This document shows positions 2,648 through 30,934 of a DNA stretch of 34,745 nucleotides, in pieces. The notes beneath the pieces are model-generated. The model was given only the letters and a program-made list of their open reading frames with translations. It searched no databases and had not been told where the DNA came from. The position numbers were made by a program, and so were the translations under genes. Origin of the DNA: a virus; the IMG/VR virus record IMGVR_UViG_3300017613_001904, positions 1 to 34,745 of that record; one strand, 5' to 3'. Position 1 is the first letter of the stretch. The number at the start of each line of letters is the position of its first letter.

Positions 2648-5287
2648 ATGGCTTACGAGAATGTTGAGTTTAGTTATAATAATTTTTGCATAGGCCCGCA
2701 AGGCGGAACGTTCTGTAGTATAGATACTACTAATGTGGCTACTACACTACAGGTGAAAAACAGTACCGGCAGCTTATTACATAACTATTCAGTGAATCCA
2801 GATTATGCGCAAAGCTTGTCCATTGGGTCTATAGAATATCCGGGCCCTAGAGGCGCTACTGGATTTTTTGATGATGTGCCTTTTTTTACATTAGAACATA
2901 ATAGTAGCACGCAATGTACTATAAGAGCTTGGAAATTTAACAGTACTAATTCCACTTTAGAAAAGGATTACGATATAGTAAAGACTACCGCCGGATCAAA
3001 TTATTTTAATTGTTATGATATGTCTGTGGAATATTGGCATACCGAGTTTGACGGTGCGACTACAACTGGTACTGGCAAGATAAAATTGGATTCAATTGGT
3101 TCTGTTGTTTCTGGTACCGAATTATTGTTGGGGCCGAGCAGTGATGCAACAAATACTGATGCGACAGAATGGGTAGAAGTTACTAGTGTATCCGGTGCTT
3201 GGGTTTATATAGATAGTATTACTTCTAGTGGAACAACGGCTCCTATATATGAATATGCAGATGCGGATGATATTACTTATTCTAAATACATATATTTGTT
3301 TAGTGATATAGGCCAAAACAATGATTCCACTAAAGGGTCCTTATATAAGTTAGATGTCAAGGATGGATCAGTTGTAGATGTTCAAAACAGTGGGTTATAC
3401 GGTGGTGTTAGGGCGTCAGCTTGGAGTTTGGATTATGATGCTATTGGCATAATCAAAGGAAATAATTTACTATATGTTGATCCAAACAATAACTATTATG
3501 TGACTAGATCACAAACCGCAACTAATGTAGAAGATGATGACACTACTATTATTCCAGTTTACGATTTAATATTTGATAACTATTCCATTTATAGATTGCA
3601 AAAAAAAGTAACTTTTAGAGATGATGCTGGTGACAAAGCTACTACAACATGGGCCACATATAATTACCACCAAGATACTATCGCACCTTATACTTTGAAT
3701 ATAGCACCATCAATTGAGCCGGACGGTATAGTGATGAATAACGGTAGTATCACTATTACAGTTGCGGTTAGAGATCAGTTCGGTGTTGGTTTATCTGCTA
3801 AAGATGTTTATTTTAGTAAAACTGGTGATGCTGGTGGTGCGTTTGATCCTGTAGGTGGTCAAGTTCTTACCAATTCAAGTGGAATAGCTACAATTGATTA
3901 TCAGACTGATTATTATTATCCTACAGGATCAGATACGGACACTGAAGATGTAGTAATTAAAGCTAAAACTGATGGTGGTTCAAGTTATTTAGGCGCGCCA
4001 GTATCTGGCTATACTGGCTGGATTTGGGACGAAATAGAATTTGTTTTATGGCGTAAGTTTACTACAGATATTAAAAATATAACGCAAAAACCTACATTAA
4101 GTGGTGTATGGCCTACAGAAGGATCGGATCTTTACTCTCAGGTGTATCTTGAACAATTAGAAGATATGGAAACCGATTTATATTTGAAAGGGTTAAGCAA
4201 ATTTCAATTCCCCGGAGGCCATTGGATACAGACAGGAGCCCCCAATGATTCCACAGCAATTATGGTTCAATTGGAAGCGTTTGAAAGTGAGGGTCGTTTA
4301 AATCAACTTACTGATGAAGTTGAAAATATAATTCCATTGATTCAAGATAAACAGGTTGAAAATGAGTTACAAATTAGTCAAACACACACTAGTAGGCACG
4401 TACTTGATCAGAACAAAGATTCTGTACAAATAAACCAATTCAAATTTATTGAAGATGCTATTCCGCCATTCTGGTCTGAAAAAAATCCAGTAGATACAAA
4501 CATTTGGATACATTTGAGACCCTATATAGCTAGTTTAGATCAAAATACATTAGTTTTTAAGGTACGCGAAGTGTCCTATGCTGGTGATACTGGTTATATA
4601 GACGTTACTGGATCTTGTGTGGTGATTGGTGATGGGGGATCTCCACAGGGTTTGAAAATAACCTATAATCCTCCTACTAATTTTCATCACCAAGCCATGG
4701 TTTTTGTTAGTATAGAAGTTTATGATCAAGCTCCAACACCTAATATTATTTTAACCGATTATTGGTTCAAGATAATTCCTGATTATAAAGCTCCTTATAT
4801 ATTAAATGAGAATCCGGCTCGGGAAGAAGAAGACGTGGCTTTGGATACTAATATTGAGTTTGATGTATTAGATGCTGGTGTGGGAGTAGATATAACTAGT
4901 TTAGAGTTTTTTGTAAATAATAGGATAAAAATTCCAACAGTTTCAGGTGTTTCAGGTGGGTATCACGTTAGTTATAACCCATCGGAGGATTTCTTTTATG
5001 GAGAAACTGTTGAAATTACAGTCAAAGTAAGAGATGCTTCGGCTTACCAGAATATTTTGTACGATATGTGGCGTTTTTATTGTGTTGGTAGTACAGGCCC
5101 GTGGATAGATAGGAGTAGTGTTTATCCAAAAAGTTGTTCAGAAGGAGTTGATAGGGAACAGACTAATATTTATGTGAATATGTATGCGATTAATGATACC
5201 GGATTAGATAGGGAAAGCATACTTATAGAAATAGGGGGAAAGGAACGGAATGTTACAATAACTCCAATAATTTACCGGGTTGATTAA
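2648..5287 (+). CDS. Large Ig-repeat virion protein with propeller-like N terminus (paralogue 3 of 3)
   Basis: The first ~340 of 879 residues are homologous to the two preceding proteins (MAYENVEF start, LLLGPSS module, VYDLIFDNYSIYRLQ). Residues ~345-447 are the invasin-like Ig domain (ITVAVRDQFGVGLSAKDVYF). A linker region of ~448-600 has a more helical, Gln/Glu-rich stretch (LTDEVENIIPLIQDKQ). It is followed by three repeated Ig-like units starting near residues 605, 714 and 817. The middle unit is the most complete (DAGVGVDITSLEFFVNN, YNPSEDFFYGETVEITV). The last unit stops after its first strands, so the protein looks shortened relative to the repeat pattern, and similar Ig sequence resumes in the next gene. 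Bacterial Ig domains of this sort are common spacers and ligand binders in phage tail proteins. The exact location in the virion is not shown by sequence. Confidence 0.6.
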   Translation: MAYENVEFSYNNFCIGPQGGTFCSIDTTNVATTLQVKNSTGSLLHNYSVNPDYAQSLSIGSIEYPGPRGATGFFDDVPFFTLEHNSSTQCTIRAWKFNSTNSTLEKDYDIVKTTAGSNYFNCYDMSVEYWHTEFDGATTTGTGKIKLDSIGSVVSGTELLLGPSSDATNTDATEWVEVTSVSGAWVYIDSITSSGTTAPIYEYADADDITYSKYIYLFSDIGQNNDSTKGSLYKLDVKDGSVVDVQNSGLYGGVRASAWSLDYDAIGIIKGNNLLYVDPNNNYYVTRSQTATNVEDDDTTIIPVYDLIFDNYSIYRLQKKVTFRDDAGDKATTTWATYNYHQDTIAPYTLNIAPSIEPDGIVMNNGSITITVAVRDQFGVGLSAKDVYFSKTGDAGGAFDPVGGQVLTNSSGIATIDYQTDYYYPTGSDTDTEDVVIKAKTDGGSSYLGAPVSGYTGWIWDEIEFVLWRKFTTDIKNITQKPTLSGVWPTEGSDLYSQVYLEQLEDMETDLYLKGLSKFQFPGGHWIQTGAPNDSTAIMVQLEAFESEGRLNQLTDEVENIIPLIQDKQVENELQISQTHTSRHVLDQNKDSVQINQFKFIEDAIPPFWSEKNPVDTNIWIHLRPYIASLDQNTLVFKVREVSYAGDTGYIDVTGSCVVIGDGGSPQGLKITYNPPTNFHHQAMVFVSIEVYDQAPTPNIILTDYWFKIIPDYKAPYILNENPAREEEDVALDTNIEFDVLDAGVGVDITSLEFFVNNRIKIPTVSGVSGGYHVSYNPSEDFFYGETVEITVKVRDASAYQNILYDMWRFYCVGSTGPWIDRSSVYPKSCSEGVDREQTNIYVNMYAINDTGLDRESILIEIGGKERNVTITPIIYRVD

Positions 5288-5326: not shown

Positions 5327-5950
5327 ATGACCATTGTAATTGACAATTTTTCTATAGGAGTAGAAGATTGGATATCAGTATCGGATTTAAATCACTTTTC
5401 CGTAGATGTGGTAGAAACCGCTTCTGGTGTTGGTATAAGTACGTCCGGTACGTATTTTATTCATGATGGCCAGGCAGTTCCAACTACTTATTCAGGTATA
5501 ACGGGTGGTTATATATGTTATTATACTCCGAGCGGTGTTTATTCTGATGGTACTATAAATTTAACTATTCATGCCGAAAACACTGCTAGTGGGGTATCAG
5601 AACAGGCTTTTCATTTATTATATGGATACAATGCTAAGTTTGAGGAGTGGGTTGATTGGGGTCCCCATGTTCAAGTAGATATAAGAGCACAAGCTTCAAA
5701 TTTAGTACGATGTCCCAACACAGTGGGAGAGGGTTTTTACTTTATAACCGCTGATTTAGAATCGGTGAATTTAGGCGCTACTATACGGGCAATTGAAAGT
5801 GTTGATTTAGGCGCGAAAATATATCCACAAAGTACAGCATTCTTTTATGGTGAGACTTACACTGTTACAATAAGTGGAGTTAAAGATTTTGCAGGAAATA
5901 TAATGGATCCATATATATATACATTTACGATTGAGGATCCTAGTAATTAA
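5327..5950 (+). CDS. Small Ig-like virion protein with a DLGA repeat pair
   Basis: This 207-residue protein has two Ig-like halves. The first (to ~residue 100) has the SASGVG-turn pattern of the Ig repeats in the preceding gene. The second ends in FFYGETYTVTISGVKDFAGN at 172-191, a typical Big_5/SbsA Ig-like final strand pair. Between them, residues 148-171 carry NLGATI and DLGAKI exactly 12 residues apart, the same dodecapeptide found more than 20 times in the protein at 28213-30180. It lies 39 bases downstream of the preceding gene and in the same reading frame, separated by three in-frame stops (TAA, TAA, TAG). The AGGGGA ribosome binding site supports the ATG at 5327 as a real start. Function is inferred to be structural; no catalytic motif is visible. 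Confidence 0.55.
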   Translation: MTIVIDNFSIGVEDWISVSDLNHFSVDVVETASGVGISTSGTYFIHDGQAVPTTYSGITGGYICYYTPSGVYSDGTINLTIHAENTASGVSEQAFHLLYGYNAKFEEWVDWGPHVQVDIRAQASNLVRCPNTVGEGFYFITADLESVNLGATIRAIESVDLGAKIYPQSTAFFYGETYTVTISGVKDFAGNIMDPYIYTFTIEDPSN

Positions 5951-5971: not shown

Positions 5972-7531
5972 ATGGCAGCGGTAATAAGATGGGTCAAATA
6001 CGATGTTTCAGCTGTTGGCGCAGCGGGGGACGGAAGAGCTGCTGGATGTGTTGGAACTCGTGGATATTCATTTGGCATAGGTTCTGTGAACGCAGACGGA
6101 GTTACAATTGGCCCAACAACTAATAGGCTTTATGTTAATATAGATGGGTTCACCCCACCTAGTAGTTATATCACGTTATATTCAGGAGCTAACCTTGATC
6201 CTAGGTTTATAGCCAGAGATATAACTGAAAAGTTACATAATGTTGATACTGGTGACGAGAGATGGGCTAACGCCACTTGTTTATGGGAAAGTGGTGATTG
6301 GGTTTCCAGCACTGAAGCTGACAATCGTTTTAGAATTTATTCTGGTAGTTTAGGCAGCTCGTCCAGTGTTACAGTAGTTAGTGGAACTAATACAGCTCAC
6401 GCTATTCTTGGTTGGGATGCCGAAAGCAATCCAGGCGGAGCAGCTACTAGCAATACTTACAGTGGTACCATAACTATATCTGGAACGTATACTGGTCTTT
6501 TTGACGAAGTTTATACTATACTTGCTAGTAATGAACCTGATAATGGTATTGGCGCTCTCAATGATGCTAACATAGTATACGGTGGTACTGCAACTACTGC
6601 TGGAATGTTTACAGGTACTTCTGACGACACATACACTATAACCATTGATGTAACTAATGGAACTACTATGGGTGCTGGAACTGGAAATGTGCCTCGTATG
6701 AGGTGGACATCTACTAATGGCGATGACATGGGCGGAGCTGAATGGATAGAATTACTTTATCCGTTACATTGGTATAAGGTGGGAACCGGTGGCGTAATGA
6801 TTAAATTTACTGACGCAGTTTTTGCTGCTGGTTGGTTTACTTTACCAGTGTATGAAACTGACACTACTGATGGAGCTAATCCTAATGGGGCTTTAGGAAC
6901 TGCTCAATATAATTATAGCTCAAATAGAGGTGATGATAGTGCTGCACCAATTACTACATCTTCTGGTGGTTATACTGCTCTTGGTACTAAAGGTTTATAT
7001 ATTAAATTCAGTAATGCAAATAACCTATATGCTAGGGATGTGTTTTATGCGCTTTGTGCTGGCCCTTTGCCGGGTGCTCCAGCTAATTATAATATAAGCA
7101 GTTTGAATTATGGTAATGTTACAGTTTCTACTGATTCAGATGTTAGGTCTGTTCTATTTGAAATTGAGTCTGGCGCGGTGGAATTATCAACTGTTAAATT
7201 TGGTTTGCAGAATCACGGAACTTTTAATCATCATAAAGAAAATAATGCAGATACACATTTTAGATTTGGTACTGTGGGTCCTGGTCAACCCAAGACAGGA
7301 ACCGAATGGCATCAAAATGTAACCTATGATGATTTAGATGATGATACCCCACCGGCTTATTTGTACGCTATAGATAAGAGTTTAGCAGTGGTGTCTACTG
7401 CTGACAATTCTGAAACTGTGGGCAATTTTGGACTTACTGCTGATCCAGTGTGGTTGTGTATACATTTAGGTGCCAGTGAAACTGGAGCTAATAGTACAAT
7501 TAACTATAGACTTTACTTTGATTATTCATAA
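5972..7531 (+). CDS. Beta-rich virion protein with VNID-type module and GTYTG repeats
   Basis: This 519-residue protein is rich in Gly, Thr, Ser, Asn and Ala and nearly free of Cys and Lys-rich segments. Residues ~50-150 carry LYVNIDGF, LYSGANLD, RFIARDI, FRIYSGSLGSSSSVTV and AILGW in order. This pattern recurs near residues 224-304 of the giant protein at 13594-20331 and resembles modules of flagellar hook-associated and phage tail proteins. Residues ~165-225 hold two copies of a unit ending GTYTGxxDExYTI / MFTGTSDDTYTI about 42 residues apart. The C-terminal half has beta-strand-like segments including TDPVWLCIHLGASE and YRLYFDYS at the very end. A perfect AGGAGG precedes the ATG. A structural role is inferred; the family is not recognised. 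Confidence 0.55.
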   Translation: MAAVIRWVKYDVSAVGAAGDGRAAGCVGTRGYSFGIGSVNADGVTIGPTTNRLYVNIDGFTPPSSYITLYSGANLDPRFIARDITEKLHNVDTGDERWANATCLWESGDWVSSTEADNRFRIYSGSLGSSSSVTVVSGTNTAHAILGWDAESNPGGAATSNTYSGTITISGTYTGLFDEVYTILASNEPDNGIGALNDANIVYGGTATTAGMFTGTSDDTYTITIDVTNGTTMGAGTGNVPRMRWTSTNGDDMGGAEWIELLYPLHWYKVGTGGVMIKFTDAVFAAGWFTLPVYETDTTDGANPNGALGTAQYNYSSNRGDDSAAPITTSSGGYTALGTKGLYIKFSNANNLYARDVFYALCAGPLPGAPANYNISSLNYGNVTVSTDSDVRSVLFEIESGAVELSTVKFGLQNHGTFNHHKENNADTHFRFGTVGPGQPKTGTEWHQNVTYDDLDDDTPPAYLYAIDKSLAVVSTADNSETVGNFGLTADPVWLCIHLGASETGANSTINYRLYFDYS

Positions 7532-7569
7532 TAAAATAGAATAAAATTATAGGATTACAGGAGATAATT

Positions 7570-7878
7570 ATGCAAAGGGGATGGGAAGTTGAATTATCTA
7601 ATGGAGTGATACTCAGAGAGGGTGAGCTGGACTGGAAAAAAGTGCCTAAAAACCAGATAGTCAGGCTCACCCTTTTTTATGATGGTAGGCGTTGGGATCT
7701 AACTGACAAAGAAGCTTATTTTATTAAATACAGAGCTTCTGTTGTGCCTGGTATACAAGATAGTTTTAGAATAGAGCGAAGAGTAATTGGATACTATGAG
7801 GGATCTAATAAGGTTTGTTACTGTGTAGACGAACATACAGGTAAATTTAATTTAGAGGTAATCAATACTAATGAGTAG
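7570..7878 (+). CDS. Small hypothetical protein upstream of the Cys-rich giant
   Basis: This 102-residue soluble protein has no signal peptide or membrane segment. Visible features are a central AYFIKYRASVVPG segment, RIERRVIGYYEG, and two Cys near the C terminus (KVCYCVDEHTG). An AGGAG site lies 6 bases before the ATG. The stop overlaps the start of the next gene by 8 bases (ATGAGTAG), which points to translational coupling, so the two products may act together, for example as a chaperone or a small structural partner of the 1773-residue protein. The family is not recognised and no function is claimed. Confidence 0.55.
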   Translation: MQRGWEVELSNGVILREGELDWKKVPKNQIVRLTLFYDGRRWDLTDKEAYFIKYRASVVPGIQDSFRIERRVIGYYEGSNKVCYCVDEHTGKFNLEVINTNE

Positions 7879-10800
7879 TATAGAAAAGAACGTATGTCAA
7901 TATTGGCGAGAAGATGAGCCCGCACTGTGCTCACATTGGAATGCTGAAACTAATACATGTAAAATATCAGATGCGTTATATCATCCAAATTGTAATTACG
8001 TAGGAACTCAGACTAGATGTGATAAATATGATGGTGAAGGCACAGCACCTCTTTGTGTTTTGCCTGATGTAGAACGACAAGTAGGTAATCGTAGGACCGG
8101 GTTAAAATGGGTTTATGCAGATATTAATAAGTATAATAAAGGCCAGTGTGACGGGGCTGGTACGTCTACTACTTGTTCTGGATATTCGCCTTATCATTTA
8201 GGATTTTCCGCTATTCAACCTGACGATAAATATGGATTATTAAAAATAGATGAAATGGGTTTTTCGACCATTACTGGTACAAGATTACCTTTAGGGTATG
8301 ATGTATACAATGAAAGGGCTAGTCTAAGTAAATGTTATTGGTGGTTTGATAACCCAGCTTTTTTTGAAGTGGATGAGGATGGTTATATAAAAAATATAAC
8401 TTCTAAGTGTACTAATACGGATGAGACAGTCGATCAATTTAAAGAATTTCAGTGGGACAAAGACACTGGTATGTATAGAGCTCCCTGTAATGGGTGTAAA
8501 CCAGAATGTCCATTTTATACTGGCGTGTGTTGGCAGTATTGTATAGACGAAAAAATGCAGCATGGTGATAAAGTTTTAGCAGAACAGATGTTAGAATTAC
8601 GTTATCACATAAGACGTAATAGATGGACAACAGAAGATTTTGAAAACTCTTTTATAGAACCTATAATTTATGGATGGCAAGGCCCGCCAGAAGGTATTGA
8701 GGTTAAATACATATCTGGAGGAGCTTTAGATAATTGGAGTATTAACGCTATACGAGCTGAAATAACTGATTTTGATGTTTTTACTATTGATACTTCTACT
8801 GTCAGGCTTACTAGAGGTACTTCAGACCAAGAAGGTTTACCTGAAAGGGCAACTTTGGTTAGAGGAATACAAAGCGCAGTTTTAAAGCCCATAATTAGAA
8901 ATGTATTTGAACACGATGAATTAAGTCAACATTTTCCTTCCGATGTTAATATATTTGAAGTTGCTTCATTGGATCATGAGAATATTTTGATATTTGGTGA
9001 TACGTTTTGGTACAATGTTGCTACATACGGCATTAATTTGAGTGATCCAGATTTAGATTTTTTGCCCGAGGAATTAAAATCATTCGATAGTATGGAAGAC
9101 ATTAAGGCTAGTAAATCAGAGGAGTCCGAAGAAGCTTTCGAAGAGTTTAGCAATACTTTAGATGAGATTATAACAAACTTACTACGATATTACCCAGAAA
9201 AAATTATTGAAACTGAATTTGGTAAGGATATGAATATGTTTTACCTTGATATGCCTACTTTTTGGGACGAAAATATAATATTAGTTTTAAATAAGGGTAA
9301 CGGTTCTTGGGAGTTTGATAAAATAACAGTAGAAAAATTATTTTGTGGTGGAATAATAGGCCAACAAAGTTTTAGTCTTGCTGGTGATGAAGGTAAAACA
9401 ATTGATTATTTACCAGCGTATGAAAGAAATTTTAATTGTGACTCTAATAATAACGGATCTATATCGTTTAGTTTTATGCCATTTACATCAAATAATGGTA
9501 ATACATCAAAAGTGTCATATATATATAATGATTATGTACATAAACAAATACCCGCTAATCCTTATAATCCGCCTTCATTTCAAACTTACCAAATGGGGTA
9601 TGAATTACAAAAAATTACAATGTACACAGATTTAGAATTAGATCCAAAAAATGTAAGATTTTTTGGCAATAGCGGTTATGCTCTTGTAATTATACCTGAT
9701 CCATCTAAAATATTGAGTAATGTAGTTAGAAACTGGGAAATTGGTGGTGGTATAATTTTAGAAGTAACCGGAGATGATAATGAAGGTATAGATGGGAATG
9801 ATGTTAAGACCGGAATTAGAACTGTTGAAATGGAAATTTATGAACAAGGCACTGATAGATTAGAAACAAACCAAATTATAATACGCCCAAAAGATATTAA
9901 AGATTTTAAGGCTCCGTGTGATGCCGTTTTAAAATTTGGTGAGGCCGCCGCTTCGAGTGGAACTGCTTCGGTAAGTGGCGCTATTTATACTTATCAAAAA
10001 AGAAGTTTTGGCGAGACCCCCGCCGGATTTGATTATGAAATAGAGAGGGAAAGTTTTCTAGGAGTTAATGATGTAGCTAATTATAAAGATGGTGTAAGTT
10101 TGGTTGGTACTGGCAACGGCCCATACGATTTAGGGCGATTTGGTAATGATACTTTATTTATATCAACTGTTTTTGCTGGAGCTATTTCCGGCAGAATAAA
10201 AGGTGTTACTAGAACTAAAATGATGACTTGGGTGAGACAACCTTTTTGTAGAGATGTAGAGATATTTTATAGATGGAGTGCTAGTTATAAACACGCTACT
10301 TTACAGCCAGAGCGAGTTTGTTATGGGCCAACATCGTTTGAATGGGATAATAAGATACATGGAAAAATTTATATGCCATCGTGTGGAGATCATGATTTAG
10401 GTAGTTGGTCTTTGACTGGGCCTATGTGGTATCCATACGAAGCTTGTAATGATACAGCTAATTATCCGATAGATTCATCGACTAGTAATATCACTGGTGT
10501 ACGTAATTGGTTAATGGAGTTATACCAAGAGACAAATGAATCTGCTGAACCTCTATATGGGAATTGGAATATGAGGATGTTAGGTCCGCAAGATCAGTGG
10601 GGGTATGTGTGTGATAATCATGCTTCCTTATGGGATTGTACTTGTGATTGGTCTTATTGTAATTTATACAAAGAAGGCGAAAATTTGTTTACTGGATATG
10701 GTAGTTATAGGTGTGGTATAAGTTTAGTAGATCAAATAGAATGCACAAAAAATGGCGGAAGTTTGCCAAAATTTGGTAATCCATACAGAGATTTTATAAT

Positions 10801-25415: not shown

Positions 25416-26408
25416 ATGACTATACCAACCGTTAGTGGCGGTATATTTAATTTTACGACTGGTGGATATTCTTCACCGGGTTTTAGCGGATCTACATATG
25501 GGTTTGGTACGGTTGAAACATTCTACCAAGTTTGGACGGATGATTATGTGTACGCTGCTACTTCACTCGGGTTAAATATCTATGACATTACATCTGAAAG
25601 TCAATACGCTTACGTAACTTATAGTGGCGGATTCAATACAGTATGGGCAAATGAGGACAAAGTTTTTGTTGGAACAACTAATAGTGGGGTTAAGTATATA
25701 AATAAAACATGTATTAGTGGAAGTGTTGTAAGCCCTTATGATTTATTTACTTGTCTAAACGATTTTAGTGATTTGACTTATTATCACCAATTGACTTCAG
25801 ATAATATAAGATATATCCATGGTAGTGGAGACGTTTTGTGTATGATAACTAATTCTGGAGTTGATATAGTTAAGATAGACCCGCAAAGTTATAGAAGTTA
25901 TACAACAATTAGTGGGGTAAGGAAAGGATTTATGACCTCGACGGGTGGATTTTATTATATGACATTGGATGTTTTATATGTTATGTATACTTCTTTATAT
26001 GATTGGACTGAAGCAAATAAGAACTATACAGTTGGCAGCGGAATTTTTGAGTCGGGAATAGAACTTAACGACATTTTTGTGACGGAACAGACCTCATCTG
26101 ATGGTATTTCAAATACTATATTCATGGCTACCACTAGTGGTGCTTATATAATAGATGAGGGAACAGAAAATTACATCAATTTTACTAGAGCTTCTGGTGT
26201 GCATGGCGGCTCAGATGCTTTCACAGCTATATGGGCTGACACAGATGCGGGATTGTCGGCGAATAAAATGTATATAGGATTAGAGGGTTACTTTAACGTA
26301 GTTAATCTAAGTGACCAAACAATTTATGATTGGTATAGTACTAGTCATAAAGGAAGGTCAAACGAGGTATTATCAGGAAGTGGTATAGTAGATATAAATG
26401 TAACTTAA
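25416..26408 (+). CDS. Beta-propeller virion protein
   Basis: This 330-residue protein starts 3 bases after the previous stop, with GGGAG upstream of the ATG. It opens with FNFTTGGYSSP (residues 11-21) and YGFGT (28-32), a short strand motif shared with the protein at 28213 (FRFTSSGYTMP). It then shows propeller-like blades: YVYAATSLGLNIYDI, KVFVGTTNSGVKYI, VLCMITNSGVDIV, IFMATTSGAYIID and KMYIGLEGYFNVV. Each has a [VI]-[FLY]-x-x-T-[TN]-SG-[VA] core, a pattern known from two-component-regulator-like propellers. The Ser-Gly dipeptide is very frequent (14 by hand count). There is no signal peptide. It sits between two DUF2341-LamG paralogues, so it is probably part of the same fibre or baseplate adhesin set. 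Confidence 0.65.
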   Translation: MTIPTVSGGIFNFTTGGYSSPGFSGSTYGFGTVETFYQVWTDDYVYAATSLGLNIYDITSESQYAYVTYSGGFNTVWANEDKVFVGTTNSGVKYINKTCISGSVVSPYDLFTCLNDFSDLTYYHQLTSDNIRYIHGSGDVLCMITNSGVDIVKIDPQSYRSYTTISGVRKGFMTSTGGFYYMTLDVLYVMYTSLYDWTEANKNYTVGSGIFESGIELNDIFVTEQTSSDGISNTIFMATTSGAYIIDEGTENYINFTRASGVHGGSDAFTAIWADTDAGLSANKMYIGLEGYFNVVNLSDQTIYDWYSTSHKGRSNEVLSGSGIVDINVT

Positions 26409-26420
26409 GGGAGAATATAG

Positions 26421-28202
26421 ATGGGGTTAGCTGGCTGGAATAGTGATAATAAACTAAAGTTAACGATTGATGCTAGTAAAATTGATAGTACTTTACTCCA
26501 AGGTAACAGTGTTGATAAGACACAATGCACCGCTTCATCACAATATAGTTCGAGCTATATACCGGATGAAGCGTGGGATGGAATTGCAGATGGGTCAACA
26601 GCTAATTCTTGGCTTAATAATGGTGGTACAAATCCACATAATCCTGATGGAAGTTGTTATATACAATGGAACTTTGGAGTTGGGAGAGAAATTACTTGGA
26701 TGCGTTTCCACACAAGGGGAGATGGTGGTAATGATGCGTGGCCAAGTAATATTAAAATTTTGGGATCTAATACCGGATCATTTTCTGGTGAAGAAACAAC
26801 TTTGTATGATGATGATGTTCCTGGAGCTTCTGGTATGAGTCCTGATGAGTGGTCGGTTTGGATGCAGTTTACTGCCCATGGTTATTATCAGTATTTAAGA
26901 ATGGAAATTCATGAAAGATATGTTTATCAAGCTGGCGGTACTTGGTTTGCTATACAGGAAGTTGAATTTATGTATGAATTGTCGAATTTTCCAGTACTTA
27001 TATCTCTATCATCTAGTAGTGGCCAAACAAATTATGACACTACTGGCGTGTTTGATGAGTTAGCTACGATTTCTGGAAGTTATGATAATAGGAAAAAAAT
27101 TGCGGTAACAACAACAGTATCCGGTGTAGAAACTGAGTTGTTTGTTGAAATAGAACGCTGGGATGATACTACTGCTTCCGGTAATGAACAAGCTTGGTTA
27201 TGGACTAAAGTTCCAACAGTATCTTCTGGGATAGATACAGAGTTATATTTATATTATGATTCTAACCATACCACCAATTCTGGATATATAGGTGATACTG
27301 GAGAAACGCCGGCTCAAAATGTTTGGGATAGTAATTTTAATGCTGTTTTCCATTTTTCTGAGGATTCATATACAGGAGCTGCTTCTGAAATAAAAAATTC
27401 TACTATTAGTGGTATACATGGGCATGCTATAAGCAGTGCTCAGCCTTCCAGTGCTTTGATAGGTAATGGTTTAGATGTAGATGATGTTAATAAAGGAGCG
27501 ATTGCAGAAAGTACTATTAATCCTGGTAATGTTTATACTGCGGAATCTTTTTTCTTAAAGCCGTGGAGCTCAGCAGGTGTTAATGCCATGTTTAAATCTA
27601 CTAGCCCAAATCAATATATGATTTTAATAGACACGGATAATTTATTAGCTGTTTATGATGGTGCATGGCGTAAAAGTAGTTATAATTTAAACACTATTAG
27701 TAATGGGTGGCACTACTTAGTTGCTGTTTCTGATGATACTAATACTTATTTTTATGTTGACGGTGGGTATGTTGATAGTGTGGCTTACCATTGTACTGGT
27801 GGTTTTGATAATTTTGGCGGTACTGCCACTCAATCTTGGGGCGATATAGATGAGGTTAGGGTTTCTGATGTTCAGCGTTCAGCAGCTTGGATTAAGGCTA
27901 CGTATTATAGTAATTTCGATGATTTAATTACTTTTTCTCCGACGATTAGTTATATACATTATTTTTCAGGAACCGTATATGAATTAGGGAGTACTGTTAG
28001 TGGTGCTCAAATTTTTATGTATAAAAGAGATACGGGTGAGTATTTAGGATCTACTACTTCGAGTGGTGATGGTGGTTTTTACATCACGACTTCTTATAGT
28101 GGATCTCATTTTTTGGCTTGTTTGGATCCAGAGGGCGGACAAAGTTACAATGACCTTATATATGGAGAAATGTATCCAATTACTATTACTATATCTGGTT
28201 AA
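26421..28202 (+). CDS. DUF2341-LamG adhesin with an inserted discoidin domain
   Basis: This 593-residue protein is a paralogue of the 23514-25412 product. DUF2341 starts at LKLTIDASKIDSTL and is interrupted at residue ~27 by a discoidin/F5-8C-like domain running to ~186 (QCTASSQYSS, EAWDGIADGS, YIQWNFGVGREITWMRFH, YYQYLRMEIHE, FAIQEVEFMYE). DUF2341 then resumes (NFPVLISLSSSSG, GVFDELATISG, KKIAVTTT, QAWLWTKVPTVSSG) and passes into a LamG region at ~304-503 (NVWDSNFNAVFHFSED, DIDEVRVSDVQRS). The last ~80 residues match the carboxypeptidase-regulatory-like end of the paralogue (GTVYELGSTVSGAQIFMYKRD). AGGGAGA precedes the ATG. Discoidin domains bind carbohydrate or lipid in known families; binding by this copy is inference. 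Confidence 0.75.
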   Translation: MGLAGWNSDNKLKLTIDASKIDSTLLQGNSVDKTQCTASSQYSSSYIPDEAWDGIADGSTANSWLNNGGTNPHNPDGSCYIQWNFGVGREITWMRFHTRGDGGNDAWPSNIKILGSNTGSFSGEETTLYDDDVPGASGMSPDEWSVWMQFTAHGYYQYLRMEIHERYVYQAGGTWFAIQEVEFMYELSNFPVLISLSSSSGQTNYDTTGVFDELATISGSYDNRKKIAVTTTVSGVETELFVEIERWDDTTASGNEQAWLWTKVPTVSSGIDTELYLYYDSNHTTNSGYIGDTGETPAQNVWDSNFNAVFHFSEDSYTGAASEIKNSTISGIHGHAISSAQPSSALIGNGLDVDDVNKGAIAESTINPGNVYTAESFFLKPWSSAGVNAMFKSTSPNQYMILIDTDNLLAVYDGAWRKSSYNLNTISNGWHYLVAVSDDTNTYFYVDGGYVDSVAYHCTGGFDNFGGTATQSWGDIDEVRVSDVQRSAAWIKATYYSNFDDLITFSPTISYIHYFSGTVYELGSTVSGAQIFMYKRDTGEYLGSTTSSGDGGFYITTSYSGSHFLACLDPEGGQSYNDLIYGEMYPITITISG

Positions 28203-28212
28203 GGAGAACTAA

Positions 28213-30180
28213 GTGGCTTATACTAAACCACCAGCGAATAATATGCCGTTTAGGTTTACTTCCAGTGGGTATACTATGCCTAACGCTGGTAGTATGAGAT
28301 TCCAATTTGGGGCTGCTGCTACTGCGAATCTACAAGCCGCTATTAACGTTCTTTCTGAAGATTACTTGAAAGAATGTCCTACCTATACAATATCTTACGG
28401 TGGTAAGATACAAACTATTCAACTTCCTTGTGTTTATGGTGGTTATAGACATTTAGGTGGTTATATTTATGGTAATCCCGAACATGCGGATTTAGGTGCG
28501 TATATTAAGGTTGTGATGGGCCAAGCCGAATTAGGCGCATATATTAAATCTACTATTCAGTCGTCCAAGAATTTAGGGGCCTCGGTGTATGGAATTCCTC
28601 CAGCCGATTTAAATGCTTATCTAAATATTATTGAGATTAGAAATTTACCAGCATATGTTTATGGTGTTCCACCCGTTGATTTACCGGCTCATTTAAACGG
28701 TTGGGCTGTTAAAAATCTATCTGCTTATGTATATGGTTACTATCCAATTGATTTAAATGCTTATATTTATGGTATTCCACCTGCCAATTTAACAGCTTAT
28801 ATACGTGCTTGGAGTATAACAGATCTTGCCGGTGAAATTAATTCAGTTTATAAAACAGATTTACCGGCTATTATACAGTCTACTACTCTAGCTGATTTAG
28901 CAGCTTATTTGTCTGCTGTTGATCCGATAAATTTTCCTGCCAGTATCCATGGATGGGCTACCGCAGATTTACCAGCTACATTAATAGGTGGTTATGGGCC
29001 TAATGATCTTCAAGCTTACATAGAAGCTTCAGGCGGGTACAAAGATTTATTAGCCTATGTCAAAGGTATGATAGAGACTGAAGTACCTTATGATTTACAA
29101 GGAATTATAGAAGGTTGGTATAGTTTTAATCTTGGTGCGTCCATATCCTTGATTTACCCAGCAGATTTGAGTGCTTACATATTTGCTACTGGAAAAACAG
29201 TTGATTTGCCTGCATCAATAATACCGAGAGTTATATATTTAAAACAAGCTATTAGGGTTGCGTTACTAGAGCACTTAGATCTGGGTGCTATGATTAACTC
29301 TTCCTGCTTTGCTTCGGGGTCAATAAATTTAAGTGCTTACGTATATCCAATTATGAAACATGATTTGAGAGCTGTTATTTTTGGTTGGAATGTAAATATT
29401 TATTCACACGTAGTGGAGCTTGCTGCTTGTATTAATACTGGGGTTGTAAACGTAGAAGATAAGATACCTGTTAGTTTTGTTCCCCAACCGCTAAAATATA
29501 CCATACTACGGCTTAAATTAGATGTTAATCCATCATATAAAGTCTTTGATACTCTTAGGATATTGTTTAGTAGTTATCCGGAGGCTAATTTACCAGCAAC
29601 TCTTACAGGTGTACTAGAATCATCAAACTTACCAGCTTATATAAAGGCCGTATTTGATTGGAATTACAGCGAACTTCCGCCATATGTAAACCCAAAAACC
29701 CACGAAGTAGTAATTGATTTTGATGAGGATGGTTATGAAAATTGGAGAAGGTTTGTAGAAATTTTCTTTGATTTTACAGGCGATTCGCCTTATCATTATT
29801 TTTATGTTAGTGGCGCAGATAAGGTTTACAGGGTGGATAGAGATAGACATTGGGTTGTGCGAGCTAAATCATATAAGCGAGTTTCTGGTATGATAGAGCG
29901 TAGAAATGTAAGGCGTAAATACATATTTAATATGTCAAATTACGCAAACGTGGACGAGGCTGTAAGAGATTTGATCGATAGGGTTTCAACGTATAGAAGG
30001 TCTAGTTTAGGAGCTTATATAAATGGTGGATTACCTATACATGCAAATTTAGGTGCATCAATTTACCCAGATGTAAAATATTCGTGGGTTAAATACTTAC
30101 ATGCTTCTGTTGTTGGTCGTTTAAGAGGATATCAAGGTACTGAAAGTTTAGATTTGTCAGCATCAATTACTGGTATATAA
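28213..30180 (+). CDS. Dodecapeptide-repeat virion protein (655 aa)
   Basis: The start is GTG, preceded by AAGGAG and followed by GCTTA as in other starts here (1429, 2648, 13594). After an opening strand motif (FRFTSSGYTMP, residues 13-23), the protein is dominated by a 12-residue repeat, [DN]-L-x-A-[YS]-[IV]-x-G-x4. Unit starts at residues 120, 132, 144 and so on to 252 are exactly 12 apart. Looser copies occur before this (81, 93, 106) and after (265, 278, 294, 306, 318, 331 and onward to 460-490). A different, charged region at ~495-595 (WRRFVEIFFDFTGD, YRVDRDRHWVVRAKSY, MIERRNVRRKYIF) interrupts the array, and the last ~60 residues return to LGAYI/LGASI repeats. Such strict periodicity suggests a beta-solenoid or stacked-strand fibre. 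The repeat family is not one I recognise. It is the last gene of the structural block. Confidence 0.65.
   Translation: MAYTKPPANNMPFRFTSSGYTMPNAGSMRFQFGAAATANLQAAINVLSEDYLKECPTYTISYGGKIQTIQLPCVYGGYRHLGGYIYGNPEHADLGAYIKVVMGQAELGAYIKSTIQSSKNLGASVYGIPPADLNAYLNIIEIRNLPAYVYGVPPVDLPAHLNGWAVKNLSAYVYGYYPIDLNAYIYGIPPANLTAYIRAWSITDLAGEINSVYKTDLPAIIQSTTLADLAAYLSAVDPINFPASIHGWATADLPATLIGGYGPNDLQAYIEASGGYKDLLAYVKGMIETEVPYDLQGIIEGWYSFNLGASISLIYPADLSAYIFATGKTVDLPASIIPRVIYLKQAIRVALLEHLDLGAMINSSCFASGSINLSAYVYPIMKHDLRAVIFGWNVNIYSHVVELAACINTGVVNVEDKIPVSFVPQPLKYTILRLKLDVNPSYKVFDTLRILFSSYPEANLPATLTGVLESSNLPAYIKAVFDWNYSELPPYVNPKTHEVVIDFDEDGYENWRRFVEIFFDFTGDSPYHYFYVSGADKVYRVDRDRHWVVRAKSYKRVSGMIERRNVRRKYIFNMSNYANVDEAVRDLIDRVSTYRRSSLGAYINGGLPIHANLGASIYPDVKYSWVKYLHASVVGRLRGYQGTESLDLSASITGI
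28570..29004 (+). repeat. Core of 12 in-phase dodecapeptide-coding units (36-bp period)
   Basis: This segment encodes twelve units that each begin with N/D-L (N-F once) at exact 36-base steps; only the last unit is 13 residues long. Early units alternate between an NLxAYVYGxPP type and a DLxAxLN type, hinting at a 24-residue super-period. Codons vary between units, so the repeat is conserved at protein level rather than as recent DNA duplication. Confidence 0.75.
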
Positions 30181-30236: not shown

Positions 30237-30269
30237 ATAGTTGAATTCAGTGAAAAATGATTAACTTTC

Positions 30270-30276
30270 AGGGGGA
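30270..30276 (+). promoter_or_regulatory. Ribosome binding site fixing the thymidylate synthase start
   Basis: AGGGGGA ends 7 bases before the ATG at 30284. The alternative in-frame ATG at 30257 has no purine-rich site at a suitable distance and would place this signal inside the coding region. The family alignment also begins naturally near MDLEFIEARDLPDAW. Confidence 0.65.
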
Positions 30277-30283
30277 TTACTGC

Positions 30284-30934
30284 ATGGATTTAGAATTTAT
30301 TGAGGCTCGAGATTTACCTGATGCATGGTTTCAATGCGTCTATAGGATTTTAGAAATAGGAAAGAAATACGTAATAGATAGAGGCAGTTACGAGGGACAA
30401 CAGCGCCTCGAATTTGACTATGTGACTATTCATATTAAACATCCTGGAGTGCGTCCGCTACTTCCGGATATCCCACCAAGTTTAGGCATACCTAATCCCG
30501 TTGCTGACGGGTACCTTGAAGAATACCTACCATATTTGATGACATCAGAAAAACAACCGGGGGAAGATTATACCTATGGTATGTATCTTGAACGTCAAAT
30601 AAATGAAGTTATCAATATGTATAAGCGTGACGGTCATAACACTAACCAAGCGTGCATGGCTGTTAGCAGACCAACTAATATTTATCTGAAAGATCCCCCA
30701 TGTTTGCGTCAGATTGATACAAGGATAAGTAGTGGTAAACTTCATTTCGTAGTTTACTTTAGATCCTGGGATCTGTGGAACGGGCTACCTGCTAATCTCG
30801 GCGCCATACAACTTATGAAGGAGTACATGGCTGCGGAAATCGGTGTGGAAGATGGTGAAATTATAGCCTCAAGTAAGGGGTTGCATATATATGATTATGT
30901 TTGGGAATTAGCAAAATTAAGAGCTTGTAAATAG
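30284..30934 (+). CDS. thyA: Thymidylate synthase, archaeal/thermophile-type
   Basis: This 216-residue protein matches the short thymidylate synthase family that converts dUMP to dTMP with methylene-tetrahydrofolate. Hallmarks are KDPPCLRQ with the catalytic Cys140, FRSWD giving R160, S161 and D163 (phosphate and active-site network), GLPANLGA with N171 (the uracil-recognising Asn of the family), and GLHIYDY with H201 and Y203. The N-terminal DLPDAWFQCVY and central EDYTYGMYLERQ are typical of the archaeal-type branch, which is shorter than E. coli ThyA (264 residues). In some phages related enzymes are dUMP hydroxymethylases used to make modified DNA, and sequence inspection cannot exclude that. 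It is the first gene after the promoter candidate and sits 10 bases before dnaN. Role: nucleotide supply for phage replication. Confidence 0.85.
   Translation: MDLEFIEARDLPDAWFQCVYRILEIGKKYVIDRGSYEGQQRLEFDYVTIHIKHPGVRPLLPDIPPSLGIPNPVADGYLEEYLPYLMTSEKQPGEDYTYGMYLERQINEVINMYKRDGHNTNQACMAVSRPTNIYLKDPPCLRQIDTRISSGKLHFVVYFRSWDLWNGLPANLGAIQLMKEYMAAEIGVEDGEIIASSKGLHIYDYVWELAKLRACK

Follow-up and report, generated by a model that had tools for sequence, protein, structure and literature searches.

Gene layout at the locus

The window analysed here is a stretch of 34,745 nucleotides of viral DNA (IMG/VR record IMGVR_UViG_3300017613_001904, positions 1 to 34,745), and the repeat gene, its parts and the copies of its elements found elsewhere in the window lie on the plus strand. 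The open reading frame at 28213..30180 encodes a protein of 655 residues. It begins with GTG at 28213, and its relatives use the corresponding position, with ATG as their start codon; upstream lies an AAGGAG ribosome site (Shine-Dalgarno-like AAGGAGAAC, 28201..28209, as read from the sequence). The amino-terminus carries the motif NxPFxFTxxGYTxP...FxFG (residues 9-37, 28237..28323), conserved in 10 members of the family and a possible docking element. It is followed by a two-cysteine cassette, LKxCxTYxxxY...C.YGGxR (residues 50-80, 28360..28452), containing Cys55 and Cys73 and conserved in most full-length members; in one relative (L079, 816-3230) a two-cysteine cassette, YCQxLxPRKYLIGYExGxPKF...RCVDFL, is present twice.

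Repeat units spaced 13-14 residues apart (residues 80-118, 28450..28566) lead into a regular array of twelve units of exactly 12 residues each (residues 120-263, 28570..29001). Beyond it come irregularly spaced units (residues 265-410, 29005..29442), with a spacing that is nearly fixed throughout the family, and two more units (residues 457-490, 29581..29682). A non-repeat domain (residues 491-597, 29683..30003) is, judged by identity to the relatives, the best-conserved part of the protein, and further units occupy the carboxy-terminus (residues 598-655, 30004..30177).

Periodicity and consensus of the repeat

In the regular array, units of the form [DN]-[LF]-x-[AG]-x-[IVL] begin at residues 120, 132 and so on to 252, in exact 12-residue steps. 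An earlier note on this DNA had described such a run of twelve, which stands: when the protein was shuffled 5,000 times, no 12-step run was longer than one unit. Its estimate of about 30 copies in total also holds, with 29 copies of the strict core motif (mean 1.0 and maximum 6 in 2,000 shuffles) and 37 of the loose one (mean 7.1, maximum 16). The shuffles rule out chance or low complexity as the source of the repeat. Self-identity of the protein is 0.215 at lag 12 and 0.265 at lag 24, over a background of about 0.06. The consensus first proposed, [DN]-L-x-A-[YS]-[IV]-x-G, is slightly optimistic; Tyr or Ser is found at position 5 in eight of the twelve array units, Ile or Val at position 6 in eight (Leu in the others) and Gly at position 8 in seven. 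The array is rich in Ala, Leu, Ile, Tyr and Pro.

Along the twelve-unit run, Asn and Asp alternate at the first position (Fisher p = 0.015), and units an even number of steps apart are the more similar (p = 0.02). The earlier note had suggested that this alternation may mean two rungs per turn. The alternation is real in this protein, but it is not a rule of the family, because among consecutive pairs in all members Asp-Asp is the commonest single type (57, versus 37 Asp-Asn and 36 Asn-Asp) and any even/odd difference is slight at most (p = 0.04-0.31); a strict two-unit alternation is thus unsupported. Two units per turn fits the structure model described below, from which that reading now derives.

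A family in uncultivated tailed phages

The repeat protein has relatives in 22 further IMG/VR contigs of up to 228 kb, amounting to about 20 distinct sequences. A direct search gave the first syntenic relative, and the others were collected with a three-unit DNA pattern, the family alignment and an IHGW-unit pattern. A distant member, encoded on a contig of 23 kb (L012/L097), has the same repeats and carboxy-terminal domain and is found by the repeat HMM (E 1.8e-14), though absent from its training set; by eye, a LamG-like domain lies carboxy-terminal to its repeats (L097). The family member of L075 (3673-7374) has its repeats fused to preceding domains that we recognise by eye as discoidin-like, with Ser-rich linkers; these domains are repeated, resemble F5/8 type C and are connected by very long Ser/Glu-rich linkers.

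The gene closes a module of virion-type genes, encoding Big_1 and Big_5 Ig-like, F5/8C, LamG, kelch, SPRY and DUF2341 proteins; in cultured phages, matches to the SPRY neighbour are annotated as virion structural proteins. This gene context supports the earlier naming of the product as a virion protein and suggests that it belongs to the virion. A sliding clamp gene lies shortly downstream in all 17 readable loci, separated from the repeat gene by a thymidylate synthase-like gene, by other genes or, in some loci, by none. In the longer loci the clamp is followed by a protein of about 200 residues and RecA, usually with a DUF2726-like nuclease. The thymidylate synthase-like gene of the window (30257-30934) is short and divergent, matching only positions 111-216 of a 266-position profile; in L006 such a gene is followed by an endonuclease-like gene. 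The closest syntenic relative, L002, has apparent homing-endonuclease genes between its virion genes (1503-1895, 4041-4907 and 7145-7999).

Elements of the repeat protein recur in other virion proteins. A copy of its amino-terminal motif opens the virion reading frame at 25416-26408 (25443..25511, HMM E 6e-4), and NxPFxFTxxGYxxPDF is also present in the carboxy-terminal tails of four relatives. Two members carry WVExNxxQWxDxxxxQW in place of the usual amino-terminal motif, and in other members this sequence sits on a neighbouring virion protein. The two motifs, FxFxxxGYxxPxF and WVExNxxQWxDxxxxQW, change places at virion-protein ends in the window (25443-25511), L078, L085, L006 and L074. From this sharing and swapping of motifs, the protein ends look like interchangeable docking elements. 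A Big_5-like Ig protein of 207 residues (5327-5950) contains two units, NLGATIRAIESVDLGAKIYP, 12 residues apart (5768..5827, repeat HMM i-Evalue 1.4e-4), and six related contigs encode homologues of it (31-68% identity) in which LxAxI pairs are conserved at that place.

Comparison with described repeats

The claim that the repeat was unrecognised is upheld by the searches: in no member are the repeats covered by a match to Pfam, PHROGs or the sequences of the PDB. The window protein and 17 aligned relatives gave no Pfam match below E 0.01, PHROG matches in family members were isolated and none spans the repeats, and PDB sequences returned nothing for the repeats of any member. Among 50,697 GenBank phages, tblastn found no relative, only chance-level matches with E up to 10; no relative was found in plasmids by tblastn, a synthetic consensus query had no matches, and a literature search turned up no phage repeat of 12 residues. 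In 84,980 genomes the three-unit DNA pattern had 55 matches, mostly in low-complexity DNA, and no family member; as it picks up just 8 of the 22 viral contigs, about a third, absence from this collection is weak evidence, and a prophage copy in host genomes is possible. The endolysin family phrog_6745 touches the carboxy-terminal domain of L072 (E 4.5e-5); tblastn follow-up found nothing, and we treat the match as a lead.

The array has no cysteine (residues 120-264) and, as first noted, neither an RTX nor a hexapeptide signature. For the RTX repeat GGxGxDxxx, with its 9-residue period, lag-9 identity is at background and Pfam gives no match; for the hexapeptide [LIV]-[GAED]-x2-[STAV]-x, lag-6 identity is 0.066, equal to background, again with no Pfam match. 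Insect antifreeze beta-helices have 12-residue coils in which Cys and Thr occupy set positions; the consensus here has neither TxT nor Cys. The curlin motif N-x-hydrophobic-x-hydrophobic-x-Q ends in a Gln that the consensus lacks, and none of the 17 members examined matches the Pfam curlin repeat. The octad VxGxxxxx of T4 gp5 differs in consensus, and lag-8 identity is 0.075. Triple beta-spirals are homotrimers that repeat every 15 residues or so; in the family, gaps between units are predominantly of 12 residues (181 gaps), with 15 residues in 23. Members are characterised by [DN]-L-x-A-x-I units, the conserved domain at residues 491-597 and a gene that comes last in the virion module, ahead of clamp and RecA. 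The repeat family is new, while the kind of structure it points to is already familiar.

Evolution of the array

Units show 32-56% identity to those in the same alignment column of relatives, against 25-31% for other units. Column-wise identity is favoured by the alignment itself, but the shared spacing supports the result. The higher same-column identity indicates units of old origin that have kept their places. A recent tandem expansion at the DNA level is rejected, the DNA copies being mostly 67-80% alike, and is also contradicted by the greater resemblance of units to their counterparts in relatives than to neighbouring units.

Insertions and deletions in the array among relatives are single whole 12-residue units. 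The distance between anchors at residues 81 and 246 ranges from 155 to 207 residues across members; counted by hand, there are 13 unit steps between them in the window, 14 in L070-L072, 15 in L078/L079 and 16 in L083/L085. In the carboxy-terminal half, the unit spacing is almost constant. Mean identity between relatives and the window is 50% for residues 491-597 and 38% for the array. A fixed tail-tip, neck or baseplate component with a folded beta-rich body, rather than an extended shaft, would agree with the strong conservation and almost invariant spacing of the carboxy-terminal half, and with a gene that keeps its place before the clamp and RecA in all readable loci, like that of a core part. 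The amino-terminal array nevertheless varies in length between the anchors as shafts do, and amino-termini are swapped among members, and we regard such a component as very unlikely.

Structure prediction

For the full-length protein, with 17 sequences, AlphaFold2 gave no usable model (pLDDT 39). For residues 114-266, with 24 aligned segments, the best model reached a pLDDT of 62.7 and a pTM of 0.64 and contains twelve strands for the twelve units, one each. The remaining four segment models were poorer (27-53), and since the five are so uneven (27 to 63) we take the segment model as moderate evidence. Foldseek returned no significant match to it in the PDB or BFVD. Its top neighbours according to VIA-align are parallel solenoids, although repeat-like models can reach a Z of up to about 13 without any relationship: SufB aligns with a Z of 11.5 (151 residues, 3.1 Å), CsgA with a Z of 10.8 (rmsd 8.3 Å; segment model pLDDT 63) and, as fifth neighbour, the CAP C-domain with a Z of 7.8. 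From the aligned ranges we estimate about 23-25 residues per turn, that is, two units. The beta-solenoid or stacked-strand fold that the earlier note had suggested is thus moderately supported, by a predicted strand for each unit and by solenoid neighbours, set against a pLDDT of 63 and the lack of a significant Foldseek match.

The beta-helices of SufB/SufD and the CAP C-terminal domain share 7-11% identity with the model, are from cellular proteins and lack the 12-residue repeat. Left-handed beta-helices of the LpxA/LpxD type give weak structural matches (rmsd 9-10 Å), and their 6-residue periodicity is absent from the repeat protein. The best viral structural match, Nodularia phage gp116 (E 0.01, 23% identity), does not have the repeat motif; in our view it is a beta-helix of the GIN type (DUF2807) with no sequence relationship to the repeat protein.

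Proposed architecture

We give about an even chance to a shaft that is a beta-solenoid, adjustable in length and conserved at its assembly end. Each unit would form one beta-strand, with Leu, Ala and Ile on one face, and a turn, and two stacked units would make up each turn, of about 24 residues, in a stiff solenoid rod with a layout like that of the centrosymmetric CsgA. The rod may be a spacer by which the adhesin-like proteins encoded nearby (SPRY, LamG, F5/8C and kelch) are carried or positioned, its length being set through gain or loss of whole units, and the conserved carboxy-terminal half would serve in assembly or anchoring and would not be a receptor tip under fast evolution.

Solenoids of the CsgA class have two short strands per turn of about 23 residues, with small or hydrophobic residues pointing inwards (PMC10192328). 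Like the repeat protein, CsgA has near-identical half repeats in variable number, and the Asn that opens its motif has its equivalent in our Asp/Asn; the repeat protein differs in its hydrophobic Leu/Ala/Ile core without an Asn/Gln-capped zipper, in its 12-residue half repeats and in its place in a phage virion module, and there is no sequence match. A more specific version, a new class of phage shaft that is curli-like and nearly centrosymmetric with two sheets, in which the units are exchangeable half turns that also occur paired in the Ig-type protein and the rod is adjusted by half a turn at a time, we advance tentatively. Gain or loss of a single unit would alter the face parity of a solenoid with two strands per turn, which argues against the solenoid rod in general, and an array so rich in Ala, Leu, Ile, Tyr and Pro would be unusual for an exposed monomeric rod and fits an oligomer equally.

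Both points bear on the main rival, an obligate homotrimeric fibre in which each chain contributes one strand per level, so that a solenoid model of the monomer would mislead; we judge it rather unlikely. Single-unit gains and losses would come naturally to such a fibre, as three chains would each gain a level together, and the hydrophobic composition and the low confidence of the monomer prediction speak for it. Against it, the period of 12 is neither the 8 of T4 gp5 nor the 15 of the triple beta-spiral, and solenoids are found as structural neighbours with the monomer model as it is. In its favour, phage and adenovirus shafts are often intertwined trimers of short repeats (PMC4576200, PMC8869412). 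The triple-stranded beta-helix of T4 gp5 (VxGxxxxx, PMC4576200) and the adenovirus triple beta-spiral (PMC8869412) are likewise built from short beta repeats, with other periods and consensus sequences.

The 12-spaced pair in the Big_5 Ig-like protein, with the LxAxI pairs of its homologues, lies where antiparallel strands would be expected, and a turn centred on position 10 would pair Leu2 with Ile6 and Ala4 with Ala4. The units could accordingly be antiparallel strands, forming hairpins or a meander, or peptides that donate a strand to other proteins of the virion. Against this, the model resembles parallel solenoids most closely, and the hydrophobic face of an open sheet would demand a partner; we think this arrangement improbable.

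Within this lineage of uncultivated tailed phages, the repeat protein is probably a core structural part of the adsorption or tail-fibre apparatus. As an undescribed repeat family encoded by a core gene of large uncultivated phages, it joins the few shaft architectures described for phages. Should the solenoid prove correct, the half-turn unit would provide a simple rule for lengthening and shortening a fibre, and the regular hydrophobic-core scaffold may be of use in design.
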